Source of the DNA: Flammeovirga kamogawensis
GTDB taxonomy: Bacteria; Bacteroidota; Bacteroidia; Cytophagales; Flammeovirgaceae
Reading direction: 5' to 3'
NCBI RefSeq assembly: GCF_018736065.1
Contig: NZ_CP076128.1
Span: forward strand, 3,735,001-3,799,000
DNA length: 64,000 nucleotides
Part shown: positions 18,791 through 26,206 of the stretch, one piece after another
Layout: each line of letters starts with the position of its first letter
How positions within the stretch are numbered: position 1 is the stretch's first letter
Notes under the pieces: model-generated
The model's database searches: none
Told to the model about the DNA's origin: nothing
Seen by the model: the letters and a program-made list of their open reading frames with translations, nothing else
Made by a program: the position numbers and the translations under genes

Positions 18791-19735
18791 ATGTTATTGA
18801 GAGTATTTTTTTGTTTTGTATTAAGTAGTATTATTTCTACGAGCCTATTAGCCCAGGAACGTAGATTAGACCCTGTATCTTTACTTACGACAACTAGAAT
18901 ACTTTCTTCGGATTATTTTGAAGGTCGTAAAACAAATACCAAAGGAGGGTTATTAGCAAGAGATTATGTGGTAGACGAATTTAAAAAAATTGGTTTAAAA
19001 CATTTTGATAGCTCTTTTATCCAAACTTTTAATTTTTATAATAAGCTATACAATGTTCATGAAGTGGGCCATAATGTGATTGGTTACGTTGAGGGGAAGA
19101 AAGTAGTACATCCTAATGAAGGGTGTATAATTATTGGAGCACATTATGATCATTTAGGTGTTTTTGGAGGAGATATTTATAATGGAGCAGATGATAACGC
19201 TTCAGGCGTAGCTGCACTTTTAGAAATAGCGAAAGAGTTTGTTAAAAACCCAGCAGATTTACCAATTGTATTTATTTCTTTTGATGCTGAAGAAAGCAGA
19301 TGTGCGGGATCAGCCTATTTTTTAGAAAGTAACTTTTTGCAATTAGAATCAATTTTATTGTTTGTTAATATGGATATGATATCCAAAAGTGATATTAACG
19401 AGTTGTCTGTTACTGGTGTTCATTATCATAATGAATACCGTAAGGATATTCAAAATAGCGTTGAAGGTAATATGACTGTTAAATTTGGCCATGATCGTAG
19501 AAAAGATGAAGGTTTGAATAATTGGGTTTTTGCTTCAGATCACGGAGAGTTTCATAAAAAAGGAATACCATTTATCTATTTTGGGGTTGAAGAACATAAG
19601 GACTATCATAGGCCATCAGATACTTTTGATAGCATCAATATTGGTTTTTTTGTAGACTCTAGTAAAATGATTTTATCTTTTATGGAAAAGGTAGGACATA
19701 AAAAAAGCCTTCTAAGAAAAATTAGAAAGCTTTAG
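18791..19735 (+). CDS. M28-family zinc peptidase, secreted
   Basis: 314 aa with a signal peptide (MLLRVFFCFVLSSIISTSLL, then AQ). Zinc ligands of the M28 family are visible: His in 'GAHYDHLGV', Asp in 'NGADDNASGVAAL', Glu in 'FDAEESRCAGS', Asp in 'FVNMDMIS', and His in 'DYHRPSDT'. It is an aminopeptidase- or glutaminyl-cyclase-like hydrolase acting outside the cytoplasm. Its last 12 codons overlap, on the other strand, the terminator of the tRNA-like array that starts right after it. Both transcription units therefore end in the same stretch. Confidence 0.92.
   Translation: MLLRVFFCFVLSSIISTSLLAQERRLDPVSLLTTTRILSSDYFEGRKTNTKGGLLARDYVVDEFKKIGLKHFDSSFIQTFNFYNKLYNVHEVGHNVIGYVEGKKVVHPNEGCIIIGAHYDHLGVFGGDIYNGADDNASGVAALLEIAKEFVKNPADLPIVFISFDAEESRCAGSAYFLESNFLQLESILLFVNMDMISKSDINELSVTGVHYHNEYRKDIQNSVEGNMTVKFGHDRRKDEGLNNWVFASDHGEFHKKGIPFIYFGVEEHKDYHRPSDTFDSINIGFFVDSSKMILSFMEKVGHKKSLLRKIRKL
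19700..19731 (-). terminator. Terminator of the tRNA-like array, inside the 3' end of the peptidase gene
   Basis: On the minus strand: stem AGCTTTCTAA / TTAGAAGGCT (plus-strand arms 19722-19731 and 19706-19715), 6-nt loop, then seven T. It lies 8 nt beyond the last unit of the array. The T-run is on the minus-strand side, so it is oriented to end the array transcript. Confidence 0.8.
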
Positions 19736-19739
19736 TATG

Positions 19740-19895
19740 CTGTAAGGGAAGGAATCGAACCTTCACGGAGTACTTAGCAACTAGACAAATCGTGTGTGCA
19801 TCGCACGTTTAGTGGTCAACCCATTACCTAGTGTTTATCGCGAACCTCCACCCCCGAGACAGGAGGGCATGTCTGCCAGTTTCATCACCTTACAG
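19740..19895 (-). ncRNA. tRNA-like RNA unit 1 (last transcribed), variable-arm type A
   Basis: Cloverleaf read on the minus strand. Acceptor TGTAAGG/CCTTACA with G73; U8, G9; D-stem ATG/CAT with loop AAACTGGCAGA; anticodon stem CCCTC/GGGGG with loop CTGTCTC, so the anticodon reads GUC; T-arm GAAGG-TTCGATT-CCTTC. Between anticodon stem and T-arm lie 86 nt instead of the usual 4-24, closed by GGAG/CTCC. CCA is not encoded. It is identical to unit 6 except for one base in the T-loop (T instead of C). Confidence 0.8.
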
Positions 19896-19935
19896 TGTAT
19901 TTCAAAAGTCTACTTATTCGTATAATAAGTAGTAG

Positions 19936-20079
19936 CTGTAAGGGAAGGAGTCGAACCTTCACGAAGTGCTTAGCCTTCTAGTAATTGTGTATGCATCACA
20001 CTTTGTATTACTAAATGTTTATCGCGAACCTTCACCCTCGAGACAGGAGGGCATGTCTGCCAGTTTCATCACCTTACAG
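19936..20079 (-). ncRNA. tRNA-like RNA unit 2, variable-arm type C
   Basis: Same tRNA core as its neighbours, with a 74-nt variable region. The anticodon stem is CCCTC/GAGGG, fully Watson-Crick, where the other copies have a U-G pair. The base of the variable arm is GAAG/CTTC instead of GGAG/CTCC, a compensated double change. Inside the arm, TTTAGTAAT pairs with ATTACTAGA and GTGT with ACAC around the loop GATGCAT. Confidence 0.8.
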
Positions 20080-20119
20080 TGTATTTCAAAAGTCTACTTA
20101 TTCGTATAATAAGTAGTAG

Positions 20120-20263
20120 CTGTAAGGGAAGGAGTCGAACCTTCACGAAGTGCTTAGCCTTCTAGTAATTGTGTATGCATCACACTTTGTATTACTAAAT
20201 GTTTATCGCGAACCTCCACCCCCGAGACAGGAGGGCATGTCTGCCAGTTTCATCATCTTACAG
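20120..20263 (-). ncRNA. tRNA-like RNA unit 3, variable-arm type C
   Basis: 144 nt with the same arm type as unit 2. Acceptor position 7 is A while position 66 is still C, the only mismatch seen in any acceptor stem of the array. The variable-arm base is GGAG/CTTC, held by one G-U pair. It looks like a mosaic of neighbouring copies. It may be slightly less stable than the other five. Confidence 0.78.
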
Positions 20264-20303
20264 TATATTTCAAAAGCCTACTTATTCGTATAATAAGTAG
20301 TAG

Positions 20304-20458
20304 CTGTAAGGGAAGGAGTCGAACCTTCACGGAGTGCTTAGCCTTCTAGCAAATCGTGTATGCATCGCACGTTTAGTGGTCAACCCATTACTAGTGTTTA
20401 TCGCGAACCTCCACCCCCGAGACAGGAGGGCATGTCTGCCAGTTTCATCACCTTACAG
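20304..20458 (-). ncRNA. tRNA-like RNA unit 4, variable-arm type B
   Basis: 155 nt, 85-nt variable region. The core and GUC anticodon are as in unit 1. The inner arm has CTAG/CTAG and an AAA-CGTG / CACG-A-TTT hairpin with GATGCAT in the loop; the segment before it (TAATGG / CCACTA) can pair apart from one A-C. It differs from unit 5 at acceptor pair 7:66 (G-C here). Confidence 0.8.
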
Positions 20459-20498
20459 TGTATTTCAAAAGCCTACTTATTCGTATAATAAGTAGTAG

Positions 20499-20653
20499 CT
20501 GTAAGAGAAGGAGTCGAACCTTCACGGAGTGCTTAGCCTTCTAGCAAATCGTGTATGCATCGCACGTTTAGTGGTCAACCCATTACTAGTGTTTATCGCG
20601 AACCTCCACCCCCGAGACAGGAGGGCATGTCTGCCAGTTTCATCATCTTACAG
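20499..20653 (-). ncRNA. tRNA-like RNA unit 5, variable-arm type B, compensated acceptor pair
   Basis: 155 nt. The acceptor stem is TGTAAGA/TCTTACA, so pair 7:66 is A-U where units 1, 2, 4 and 6 have G-C. Both sides of the helix changed together, strong evidence that the acceptor stem forms in the RNA. The rest matches unit 4. Confidence 0.82.
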
Positions 20654-20693
20654 TGTATTTCAAAAGTCTACTTATTCGTATAATAAGTAGTAG

Positions 20694-20849
20694 CTGTAAG
20701 GGAAGGAGTCGAACCTTCACGGAGTACTTAGCAACTAGACAAATCGTGTGTGCATCGCACGTTTAGTGGTCAACCCATTACCTAGTGTTTATCGCGAACC
20801 TCCACCCCCGAGACAGGAGGGCATGTCTGCCAGTTTCATCACCTTACAG
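20694..20849 (-). ncRNA. tRNA-like RNA unit 6 (first transcribed), variable-arm type A
   Basis: 156 nt, 86-nt variable region, the copy nearest the promoter. Acceptor, D, anticodon (GUC) and T arms are complete, and G18G19 and the TTCGA T-loop sequence needed for tertiary contacts are present. The predicted leader upstream is about 55 nt, so 5' processing, for example by RNase P, would be needed. It is nearly identical to unit 1 at the far end of the array. Confidence 0.8.
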
Positions 20850-20911
20850 TATCATAATCTTTTTACAACTAATTCAGATAATCGTTTTACCTTTCCCTTT
20901 TGTTGTTGATA

Positions 20912-20943
20912 CAAAGTAAAGGAATTTTATTTTATACTGCAAA
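20912..20943 (-). promoter_or_regulatory. Predicted promoter of the tRNA-like array
   Basis: On the minus strand TTTG (complement of 20940-20943), a 20-nt spacer, then TTACTTTG (complement of 20912-20919). One base differs from TAnnTTTG. The predicted start near 20905 is 55 nt before unit 6. The rest of the gap up to 21072 is AT-rich with nothing else I can identify. Confidence 0.6.
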
Positions 20944-21072
20944 CTTTTTAATGAAATAGCTTAATATTTACATTTTTATTAAAAAATTATCAATTTTTTT
21001 ATCAAATTTATAATTACATCTTATTTATAGAAGTGTTGATTAGTGAATTAATAATGATGGTTCACTTAACAC

Positions 21073-21101
21073 AAAAAAAACCTTCACTTTTAGAGTGAAG
21101 G
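21073..21101 (-). terminator. Terminator of the RsmI-like methylase gene
   Basis: Minus-strand stem CCTTCACT / AGTGAAGG (plus-strand arms 21094-21101 and 21081-21088) with a short loop, then eight T. It lies 50 nt after the stop codon and insulates the array promoter from readthrough. Confidence 0.88.
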
Positions 21102-21150
21102 CTTAATTAAAAATCAATTTTTCAGTTAAATAATTGTTATTCCTATAACA

Positions 21151-21849
21151 TTATGACTGAAGAATGAAGATTGTTGGTTTTTTATGAATATCAACTTTTT
21201 CAAATTTCCACTCTTTAAGAGTAAGTGTTTTGATGTACTCATCTTCTGCTTGAATATTTGATGCTATACAAAGTTTAGTCATAGGACTTAGATTATTGCA
21301 TAAATCTTCTAGCATTGCTCCATTTCTAAAAGGAGTCTCCATAAATATTTGAGCTTGATATAACTTTGCAGAATCTTTCTCAAGAGTTTTCATGGCTTTT
21401 ATCTTTTCTGCTTTTTGAATTGGCAGATATCCATGGAAAGCAAATTTTTGCCCACTTAAGCCAGAAGCCATTAAGGCTAGTAATATAGAAGATGGACCAA
21501 CAAGGGGTTTTACTTTTATATTTTTCTTGTGAGCGTATTGAACAGCTAAAGCGCCTGGATCTGCTATACCTGGGCATCCTGCTTCAGATATAATACCTAT
21601 ATTTTCTCCTTTAGGAACAGCTTTGAATAAGTTTTGAACTTGTTCTGGTTTTGTTTTTTTATCTAAAATTTGAAAATTTAGATCTTGTACTGTAACTCCC
21701 TCTATCTTCCATCCTCCGATAAAACGACGAGCAGTTCTAAGATCTTCAACAAAAAAGTATTTTGTTGATTGCAATGCTTTTTTTGTTTCTTCGGGCAGCA
21801 CATCATAACGCTCTGCAGCAAGAAGACTTGGAATTAAGTATAAAAACAC
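21151..21849 (-). CDS. SAM-dependent methyltransferase, tetrapyrrole methylase / RsmI-like
   Basis: 232 aa. The fold is that of RsmI, which methylates the ribose of C1402 in 16S rRNA, and of tetrapyrrole methylases. 'GIISEAGCPGIADPGALAVQ' and 'KVKPLVGPSSILLALMASGL' form the SAM- and substrate-binding core. It is shorter than E. coli RsmI (286 aa) and belongs to the compact Bacteroidota branch. Whether it has the RsmI activity is inference. It is a single gene with its own terminator at 21073. Confidence 0.85.
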   Translation of the reverse strand: MFLYLIPSLLAAERYDVLPEETKKALQSTKYFFVEDLRTARRFIGGWKIEGVTVQDLNFQILDKKTKPEQVQNLFKAVPKGENIGIISEAGCPGIADPGALAVQYAHKKNIKVKPLVGPSSILLALMASGLSGQKFAFHGYLPIQKAEKIKAMKTLEKDSAKLYQAQIFMETPFRNGAMLEDLCNNLSPMTKLCIASNIQAEDEYIKTLTLKEWKFEKVDIHKKPTIFILQS

Positions 21850-24931: not shown

Positions 24932-26206
24932 ATGTTATTAGTCTCATATATATCTGAAAATAAAGCTGAAGTAATCGAAGGGTTACAGAAAAGACATTTT
25001 GAAAATCCAGTAGAAACAATAGATAAAGTATTGTTATTGGATGAATCAAGACGTCGAGCTCAAAAAGACCGTGATGATGCTTTAGCAGAAGCAAATAAGA
25101 GTGCCAAAGAAATTGGTATGCTTATGAAATCAGGTCAAAAAGAAAAAGCTGAAGCTGCTAAAGCTTCTGCCGCAGAGAATAAACAAAAAGCAAAAGATTT
25201 AAGTTCAACAGTTGCTGAACTTGAAGAAGAGTTGCAAAATTTATTATATCAAATCCCTAATATTCCACATCCAAGTGTAATAGAAGGATATTCTGACGAG
25301 GATAATGAGGTAATGTATGAGAAAGGTGATAAACCTACTTTACATAGTGCTTCTAAACCTCATTGGGACCTTATTGAGAAATACGATATTATTGATTTCG
25401 AATTAGGTAATAAAGTAGCAGGAGCAGGCTTTCCTTTCTATAAAGGTAAAGGAGCACGTATGCAACGAGCATTAATTAGTTTCTTTTTAGACGAAGCAGT
25501 TGATGCTGGATATACAGAAGTTCAACCTCCAATATTAATTAATGAGGCATCTGGTTATGGTACAGGACAACTTCCAGACAAAGAAGGACAAATGTATTAT
25601 ATGCCTGCAGATGATTTATACTTGATTCCTACAGCAGAGGTACCAATCACAAATATTTTTAGAGGTGAATTATTACAAGAGAAAGATTTACCTAAAAAGA
25701 TGGCAGGACATACTCCTTGTTTCCGTAGAGAGGCAGGGTCTTGGGGTGCTCACGTTAGAGGTTTGAACAGATTACATCAATTTGATAAAGTTGAAATAGT
25801 AGAGGTTCAAAAAGCAGAAGACTCTGCAGAAGCTCACGAAAGAATGGTATTGCATGTAGAAATGCTTCTTCAAAAATTAAATCTACCTTATAGACGTTTA
25901 CGTTTGTGTAGTGGTGATTTGAGTTTCAATGCAAACCTTTGCTTTGATTTAGAAGTTTATTCTGCTGCACAAGAACGTTGGTTAGAGGTTAGTTCAATTA
26001 GTAATTTCGGAAATTTCCAAGCAAACCGTTTAAAATTAAGATTTAGAGATAATAACAAAAAAACTTCTCTACTTCATACATTGAATGGTTCTGCATTGGC
26101 TTTACCGCGTGTTTTAGCCGCAATTCTTGAAAATAATCAAACAGAAAAAGGTATTTTAGTACCTGAAGTACTGCAGAAATATACAGGATTTGATATAATT
26201 GACTGA
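24932..26206 (+). CDS. serS: Seryl-tRNA synthetase
   Basis: 424 aa, class II synthetase charging tRNA-Ser. The N-terminal coiled-coil arm (about residues 30-105), which grips the long variable arm of tRNA-Ser, is intact. The catalytic core shows 'LIPTAEVPITNIFRGELL', 'PCFRREAGSWGAHVRGLNRL' (motif 2) and 'LNGSALALPRVLAAILE' (motif 3). The presence of this type-II-tRNA recognising enzyme is not specifically linked to the tRNA-like array 4 kb away. Confidence 0.97.
   Translation: MLLVSYISENKAEVIEGLQKRHFENPVETIDKVLLLDESRRRAQKDRDDALAEANKSAKEIGMLMKSGQKEKAEAAKASAAENKQKAKDLSSTVAELEEELQNLLYQIPNIPHPSVIEGYSDEDNEVMYEKGDKPTLHSASKPHWDLIEKYDIIDFELGNKVAGAGFPFYKGKGARMQRALISFFLDEAVDAGYTEVQPPILINEASGYGTGQLPDKEGQMYYMPADDLYLIPTAEVPITNIFRGELLQEKDLPKKMAGHTPCFRREAGSWGAHVRGLNRLHQFDKVEIVEVQKAEDSAEAHERMVLHVEMLLQKLNLPYRRLRLCSGDLSFNANLCFDLEVYSAAQERWLEVSSISNFGNFQANRLKLRFRDNNKKTSLLHTLNGSALALPRVLAAILENNQTEKGILVPEVLQKYTGFDIID

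Follow-up and report, generated by a model that had tools for sequence, protein, structure and literature searches.

A family of tRNA-shaped RNAs with giant variable arms in Bacteroidota and their phages: co-occurrence with GatB and a possible role in asparagine formation

The DNA considered here (the window) is a stretch of 64,000 nucleotides of the Flammeovirga kamogawensis genome (contig NZ_CP076128.1, positions 3,735,001 to 3,799,000), which carries an array of six tRNA-like units with variable regions of unusual length. These units belong to an RNA family which folds as a cloverleaf by covariation, has an anticodon loop of non-decoding type, carries identity bases for aspartyl-tRNA synthetase (AspRS) and for tRNA amidotransferase (GatCAB), co-occurs with GatB, is found adjacent to genes of Lrp-type regulators and is carried by phages. 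Based on this, we hypothesize, with roughly even confidence, that the array RNA may be a dedicated non-decoding carrier, charged by AspRS and amidated by GatCAB for the formation of asparagine.

A tRNA-like RNA with a giant variable arm

A first-pass annotation, made from the letters of the window alone, had described six tandem tRNA-like units on the minus strand at 19740..20849, and matches of a covariance model place six units there (Table 1). The proposed unit size of 144–156 nt is borne out (142–154 nt from acceptor to acceptor, plus the encoded G73-C74), as are variable regions of 74, 85 or 86 nt and a tRNA core with a 7-bp acceptor, a 3-bp D-stem, a 5-bp anticodon stem with a 7-nt loop and a normal T-arm. 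All six units have the body of a class II tRNA. The acceptor reads TGTAAGG/CCTTACA (TGTAAGA in two copies), with TG at positions 8-9, a D-stem of 3 bp with the loop AAACTGGCAGA, G26, an anticodon stem CCCTC/GGGGG of 5 bp (GAGGG in one copy) with the loop CTGTCTC, and a T-arm GAAGG-TTCGA(C/T)T-CCTTC, then G73 and C74; CCA is not encoded. Units with and without the motif GGGTTGACCAC occur side by side in one array in the window, and likewise in another species of the genus (G002). That the RNA lies outside known families is supported for the window units: ARAGORN called no tRNA in the window, and Rfam 15 returned nothing at the gathering score, the matches at E<=10 being far below threshold and in some cases to the T-arm.

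Support for the fold is comparative. In alignment A3 (53 class-B units, hand-picked from 71 class representatives, aligned without regard to structure, with a hand-drawn fold) 97.7% of cells pair, compared to 88.9% in shuffles and at most 61.6% in slid versions; both-side changes are seen in 16 of 29 pairs (10.3 in shuffles), and the covariation score is 0.370 (0.184 in shuffles). Alignment A2 (43 class-A units, hand-picked from 50 class representatives) displays both-side changes in 19 of 37 predicted pairs, with the D-arm drawn differently by RNAalifold. The anticodon stem also covaries in alignment A4, the 95 units of which were fitted to the covariance model, a procedure that leans towards structure. 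The first-pass annotation had named covariance no better than chance in a larger alignment as an argument against itself, and strong covariation was found (A3 against shuffles, and A2). Minimum-energy folding of single sequences, applied to three window units and to two relatives, gave structures that depart from the cloverleaf, and their z values are ordinary (−1.77 to +0.46); energy was therefore not used as evidence. Hence, the cloverleaf with its 7-bp acceptor and its D-, anticodon and T-arms is supported by covariation, though not by energy folding. The six near-identical window copies had been used for a first covariance model, R1, whose RNAalifold fold differs from a cloverleaf; a model R2 took its place.

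Two other explanations of the structure were rejected. A spliced intron does not fit, as the insert covaries within itself and no complement to the anticodon stem was found by eye in the 3′ part. Mimicry of the 16S anti-Shine-Dalgarno sequence CCUCC by the anticodon arm does not fit either, as the stem varies (CCGTC/GACGG, CCTCC/GGTGG) among the A4 units.

Extent and forms of the family

The family comprises 243 units (201 distinct) in which both halves were matched, from 186 loci of Bacteroidota and phages, a few of which are one contig present in two collections (e.g. L014 and L096). Extraction left out the duplicates of the window (L001-L007, L200, L205-L209) and loci without matches to both halves; it yielded units from 115 of 120 pattern-found loci of named genomes and from 47 of 50 viral loci. 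A DNA search of 58 relatives found at least two copies in each of eight genus-mates, and the 5′ half of the unit is about 80–96% identical across many families of the order. The first-pass annotation had made its claim depend on homologous arrays in relatives, and such arrays are present. A pattern scan of named genomes gave at least 120 stretches (among the matches listed are Hymenobacter, Dyadobacter, Cyclobacterium, Aquirufa, Emticicia, Saprospiraceae, Chitinophaga and others), and 50 viral contigs match the pattern. An exact-pattern search of 296 genomes of the phylum saw the pattern in only 6; it was too strict and was superseded by the covariance-model search. The phage record LR756504.1 (636 kb) has a weak match of 81% (E 0.04) to the 5′ half at 133410-133455. 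In the literature searched, no title or start of an abstract describes this RNA, and the family seems to be undescribed.

The variable region measures 39–127 nt in 242 of the 243 units; the remaining one is nominally 130 nt long and contains a run of N. Its layout is a 4-bp stem, a 3-bp stem, an internal loop AUAAA/CUAA and an apical part. The apical part is a simpler hairpin in class B, to which 113 host units and 1 viral unit belong, and a domain containing UAAUGGGUUGACCAC in class A, with 83 units from hosts and 46 from viruses. In genome G029 a short form was found (L352:1340-1414) that shares the acceptor start, G73 and the loop type with the long-arm units and in which the giant arm is absent: it has 75 nt, a variable region of 7 nt, the acceptor TGTGGGG/CTCTACA, the loop CTATCTC and G73-C74. 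ARAGORN labels it tRNA-Asp(atc). Since this relative has a variable region of only 7 nt, the giant arm is not essential.

Anticodon loop and identity bases

Loop conservation was counted in A4, whose 95 units from 49 loci were found by BLAST or by covariance model and not by loop pattern. Pattern-found loci had positions 32, 35, 36 and 38 fixed by design and were excluded from these counts; model R2 was trained partly on pattern-found sequences and may under-report other loops. The loops (positions 32–38) read CTGTCTC in 58 units, TTGTCTC in 15, CAGTCTC in 8, CTATCCC in 4, CTCTCTC and TCGTCTC in 3 each, and there are 4 singletons. Thus U35, C36, C38 and a pyrimidine at position 37 are present in 95 of 95 units, G34 in 86 and U33 in 82; when each distinct loop is counted once per locus, G34 is found in 45 of 51 and U33 in 43 of 51. 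The wider set of 243 units displays U33 in 221 and G34 in 213, and A37 in two (L122, L170). One of these, L122:484-678, has a variable region of 127 nt and the loop CTGTCAC, and may be a decaying or re-purposed copy.

A decoding tRNA would be expected to have U33 together with a purine at position 37, and a variable region of 4–24 nt. In A4 a purine 37 occurs in 0 of 95 units and U33 in 82, and only the G029 form, with its 7 nt, has a variable region of such a size. The ordinary tRNA-Asp of the Flammeovirga genome has the loop CTGTCAC, compared to CTGTCTC in the array units. With U33 variable and a pyrimidine nearly always at position 37, the RNA seems unable to read codons.

The 3′ end looks fit for addition of CCA: G73 is present in 243 of 243 units and C74 in 242, with CCA unencoded. 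This is the pattern of the ordinary tRNAs of the genome, 29 genes of which have C74 in all cases, full CCA in 5 and no CCA in 24. At −1:73, an eighth acceptor pair would take the form C-G or U-G in 214 of 243 units and A-G in 29.

Bacterial aspartate identity consists of G73, G10, G34, U35, C36 and C38, and for amidation the tRNA amidotransferase relies on U1-A72 (PMC9976931, section 6 and Table 1). G73, U35, C36 and C38 are all present in the array RNA (the loop bases in 95/95, G73 in 243/243), and the U1-A72 pair is found in 52 of 53 units in A3, 43 of 43 in A2 and 86 of 86 in A4; in the wider set U1 occurs in 242 and A72 in 243 of 243 units. AspRS is of the bacterial type in the eight genomes that were checked (five with the RNA and three without).

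The genome of Flammeovirga has at least 89 ordinary tRNA genes (150 of 661 candidates were scored), among them eight copies for Val, eight for Lys, seven for Asp (tRNA-Asp(GTC)) and seven for Glu. The tandem copies, taken in the first-pass annotation as a sign that a high RNA dose matters, are real; such dosage is not special to the array RNA, however, because the Val, Lys, Asp and Glu tRNAs are treated likewise. No tRNA-Ala or tRNA-Ile(GAT) was among the 89 genes found or in 12 kb around the start of the window, and these are probably located in other rRNA operons.

Co-occurrence with GatB

Model R2 and the GatB model TIGR00133 were both run on 395 genomes of the phylum, with the presence of GatCAB judged from GatB alone. 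True R2 matches reach 75 bits or more and span 107 nt or more; the next lower match, at 67 bits, is the 75-nt form of G029, followed by matches of 80–86 nt at about 64 bits or less. Eighteen matches below 65 bits were checked, of which 14 came from the class (13 genomes, all RNA-negative) and 4 from genomes outside it; every one is an ordinary tRNA-Leu.

Among the 98 genomes of the order and class, 38 have both the RNA and GatB, none has the RNA only, 3 have GatB only and 57 have neither. GatB is thus present in 38 of 38 RNA-positive genomes of the order and class, and likewise in 3 of 3 of family f66. RNA and GatB also vary together within families: in f23 seven genomes have both and three have neither, in f24 eleven have both and two have neither.

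The three exceptions with GatB only are of two kinds. In G098 glutaminyl-tRNA synthetase (GlnRS) does not pass the cut-off, so that GatCAB is probably needed there for glutamine. A fusion of GatB and AspRS of 1110–1116 aa is present in G208 and G254. In G254 (L355:4929-9676) a GatA-like amidase precedes this fusion, which consists of GatB, an OB-fold, a class II core and a GAD domain; in G208 (L356:6296-9628) the fusion is preceded by a frame of the same size as the GatA-like gene of G254. The GatA-like protein and the fusion look like a built-in machine for the conversion of Asp to Asn. No match to the RNA model was found near the fusions in G254 and G208.

GlnRS and asparaginyl-tRNA synthetase (AsnRS) were tested in 65 genomes (all 41 GatB-positive genomes and 21 of the 57 GatB-negative ones from the order and class, plus 3 from f66). 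AsnRS passes the cut-off in all 65 and GlnRS in 57, including 34 of the 41 RNA-positive genomes. Since AsnRS is found everywhere and GlnRS in 34 of 41, the usual tasks of GatCAB do not explain the link to the RNA in most RNA-positive genomes. The same four class-IIb matches are seen in nearly all of the 65 genomes, no search being aimed at a second AspRS. Two genomes of family f13, G046 and G438, in which GlnRS is not over the cut-off, have extra AsnRS-like frames that lack the N-terminal anticodon part (G046:C2:595933-596853, 346 aa; G438:C1:2542190-2542744, 195 aa), possibly an AsnRS-derived asparagine synthetase. As far as the available text of PMC4206432 goes, 18 genera, some of them Bacteroidetes, have AsnRS, GlnRS and GatCAB, lack an asparagine synthetase and possibly make asparagine on tRNA-Asn.

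Lrp-type regulators and phage carriage

A divergent gene of an Lrp/AsnC regulator (PF01037; one member was searched) is located 81–224 bp upstream of the RNA in 57 loci, and in 55 of the 98 host loci that have 700 nt or more of upstream sequence. These loci include Hymenobacter, Dyadobacter and one metagenome-assembled genome each of Chitinophaga and Flavobacteriales. The motif TAnnTTTG, the −7 consensus of Bacteroidota, is found on the RNA strand in 51 of the 57 intergenic regions between the Lrp gene and the RNA; the opposite strand has it in 12 of 57, and mononucleotide shuffles in 5.2 on average. A similar Lrp-like protein (named by eye) follows the RNA in nine other loci, and in the window genome the Lrp orthologue (65% identity) sits elsewhere, near a peroxiredoxin gene. 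Control of the RNA by an Lrp/AsnC-type regulator is probable.

A tRNA or tmRNA gene lies within 500 bp of 17 of the 47 phage units, always on the same strand, and within 10 nt of 7. Three viral contigs (L152, L181, L188) have 4 to 19 tRNAs and a tmRNA in the same stretch as the RNA. In viral loci a terminase cluster is near the units in 24 cases and a ThyX cluster in 11 (names from one member each). An origin of the viral copies as att sites was rejected, given the terminase and ThyX genes near many of them.

Proposed function and alternatives

The proposed carrier function would comprise several steps. (i) The array would be transcribed from its own unit and matured like a tRNA, by RNase P and by addition of CCA at the encoded G73-C74. 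(ii) As the RNA carries G73, U35, C36 and C38, and usually G34, AspRS would charge it with aspartate. (iii) The charged RNA would not decode, given the loss of U33 in part of the units and the pyrimidine at position 37, and the giant arm may also bar it from the ribosome. (iv) GatCAB, whose GatB subunit co-occurs with the RNA, would read U1-A72 and convert Asp-RNA to Asn-RNA. (v) Asparagine might then be released for use by AsnRS or be handed to some other acceptor, which is speculative. Phage copies would presumably serve the same supply. The first-pass annotation had not decided between a working tRNA, a decoy and a regulator; the identity bases, together with the co-occurrence with GatB, now point to AspRS and GatCAB.

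Several observations weigh against this proposal. The Fisher test for co-occurrence (p 4.9e-24) ignores phylogeny, and absence of the RNA means absence of a match to the long-arm model, so that short forms like that of G029 may be missed in unchecked RNA-negative genomes. Of the 297 genomes from outside the class, 272 have a GatB that passes the cut-off, and the RNA is seen only in the 3 of f66; since GatB is near-universal there in the absence of the RNA, GatCAB has no general need of it. In 7 of the 41 RNA-positive genomes GlnRS is not over the cut-off, hence GatCAB has another use there. Another base stands in place of G34, a strong aspartate determinant, in 9 of 95 units of A4 and 30 of 243 in the wider set, and no copy with G34 was seen in G009, G011, G046, G438, G029 and G371. 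Two further features of tRNA-Asp differ, with G10 present in 12 of 243 units and absent in 231, and G1-C72 replaced by U1-A72. Two of the 243 units have A37 (see above), and 30 of the 47 viral units have no tRNA in the stretch examined. The proposal would also require AspRS and GatCAB to accept the giant arm, which can be lost.

Among the alternatives, the one which survives best, though we regard it as rather unlikely, is that the RNA scaffolds or regulates the AspRS-GatCAB complex (as a transamidosome component or a brake) instead of being a substrate. Such a role would be in line with the same GatB co-occurrence and the same recognition marks, and a large structured arm could aid assembly. 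However, G73 (243/243) and C74 (242/243) are kept as would be needed for a chargeable 3′ end, and the giant arm is lost in G029.

The class II shape and G73 could also mean that seryl-tRNA synthetase (SerRS) charges the RNA, which would then be a serine carrier or a regulator of serine/leucine metabolism. The long variable arm, G73, G2-C71 and R4-Y69 (the latter in 51 of 53 units in A3) fit part of the bacterial serine set, the D-loop resembles that of tRNA-Leu from the same genome, and some phage copies lie 4 nt after a tRNA-Ser(TGA). LeuRS-type A73 is found in none of the 243 units, and G73 is an antideterminant for LeuRS (PMC9976931). But other members of the serine set are mostly not found: A72 replaces C72, position 11 is mostly U and the pair 30-40 mostly U-G, with most units lacking C11-G24 or G30-C40. 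Serine identity is independent of the anticodon as far as the available text of PMC9976931 goes, so the invariant U35, C36 and C38 would have no explanation, and neither would the link to GatB; the 75-nt form lacks the long arm. We consider charging by SerRS improbable.

Less probable still is a role as a tRNA decoy that counters anticodon nucleases or other defences against phages. Carriage by phages, with 17 of 47 units near tRNA or tmRNA genes, would suit a decoy, but 46 of the 47 viral units belong to class A, which occurs in hosts as well, the chromosomal copies are conserved across orders beside a regulator, and presence of the RNA tracks GatB. An ordinary decoding tRNA with an Asp-like anticodon GUC and an odd arm, as suggested by U33 and G34-U35-C36 in most units and by the ARAGORN label of the short form, is the least credible of all, as position 37 is a pyrimidine in 95 of 95 units, U33 is missing in 13 of 95, position 34 drifts, seven tRNA-Asp(GTC) genes are already present in the genome and, if the RNA were amidated, Asn would enter at Asp codons.

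A wider version of the carrier proposal is held more tentatively than the carrier itself. Here the RNA would be a reusable carrier for amino acid biosynthesis, which AspRS loads with Asp and GatCAB amidates, with Asn being released or passed on. Much of the class would keep GatCAB chiefly for this RNA, the RNA would be multiplied into arrays in some genera and often be under Lrp/AsnC control, RNA and enzyme would be lost together, and phage copies would raise the supply of Asn.

Organization of the array in the window

Table 1. The tRNA-like array of Flammeovirga kamogawensis and its flanks (window positions; class A units have the GGGTTGACCAC domain)
Feature	Position	Strand	Description
Unit 1 (first transcribed)	20695..20848	−	154 nt; class A; variable region 86 nt; 110.9 bits
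Unit 2	20500..20652	−	class A; variable region 85 nt; 107.8 bits
Unit 3	20305..20457	−	class A; variable region 85 nt; 109.1 bits
Unit 4	20121..20262	−	142 nt; no GGGTTGACCAC motif; variable region 74 nt; 103.7 bits
Unit 5	19937..20078	−	142 nt; no GGGTTGACCAC motif; variable region 74 nt; 110.2 bits
Unit 6 (last)	19741..19894	−	class A; variable region 86 nt; 111.1 bits
Leader and presumed promoter	20849..21077	−	TTTGCAG...TTACTTTG, imperfect match to TAnnTTTG (read from the sequence)
Example of a spacer between units	19895..19936	−	short hairpin CTACTTATT..AATAAGTAG, then CTTTTGAAATACAC (by eye)
Intrinsic terminator-like site	19704..19733	−	directly after the last unit
Intrinsic terminator-like site	21078..21104	−	upstream of the array, between it and the preceding gene

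The array runs on the minus strand from 20848 to 19741. Two intrinsic-terminator-like sites were found in the region (0.7 expected), and since they flank the array on its own strand, it looks like a single transcription unit. The gene before the array (21151-21849) is methylase-like (PF00590, slightly below the cut-off). Short hairpins as in the spacers were also seen by eye in the spacers of some ordinary tRNA arrays of the genome (Asp, Glu). A seryl-tRNA synthetase gene is located at 24932-26206, 4 kb from the array. A link between the two was considered and dropped, as the neighbourhood is not repeated in the loci of relatives (same-genus loci cover only about 1.5 kb of flank).

Relation to known systems

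The closest parallel is tRNA-dependent formation of asparagine, in which AspRS and GatCAB act on tRNA-Asn (Deinococcus, Thermus, Bdellovibrio). Both share GatB, U1-A72, and AsnRS and mostly GlnRS in the same genomes. The known substrate, however, is a decoding tRNA-Asn used with a non-discriminating AspRS, whereas here a separate and seemingly non-decoding RNA bears the Asp bases. Non-decoding tRNAs of other pathways are likewise tRNA-like molecules that act outside translation; tRNA-Gly for peptidoglycan is such a tRNA, and these tRNAs differ from normal ones by few bases. We know of no non-decoding tRNA tied to GatCAB.

With the class II tRNAs (Leu, Ser) the array RNA shares the 3-bp D-stem, a Leu-like D-loop, a long variable arm and the 7/5 arrangement of acceptor and T-arm. 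It differs in its far longer arm (the variable region of class II tRNAs has roughly 10–24 nt), the branched apical domain, the non-decoding loop and the Asp-type bases. As for tmRNA, the tRNA-like end is similar and some of the same phage contigs carry both, but the array RNA lacks an mRNA-like domain and possesses complete D- and anticodon arms; the genome also encodes a separate, ordinary tmRNA, so that the exclusion of tmRNA in the first-pass annotation stands. Its exclusion of tRNA-Sec also agrees with the 7/5 acceptor and T-arms, and the same applies to allo-tRNA. In allo-tRNA and tRNA-Sec the acceptor has 8–9 bp and the T-stem 3–5 bp. Together with selC*-tRNA-Cys, these are unusual long-armed tRNAs as well, but according to the available text of PMC7609411 all three have longer acceptor stems, in contrast to the 7/5 arms here.

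A widespread and conserved tRNA-shaped RNA thus escapes both Rfam and ARAGORN in this genome. If the link to GatCAB is true, it would address why some bacteria with both AsnRS and GlnRS retain GatCAB, a question raised in the available text of PMC4206432. The array RNA would then be an alternative substrate to tRNA-Asn for the formation of asparagine, and the family would represent a tRNA-like RNA that serves metabolism alone.

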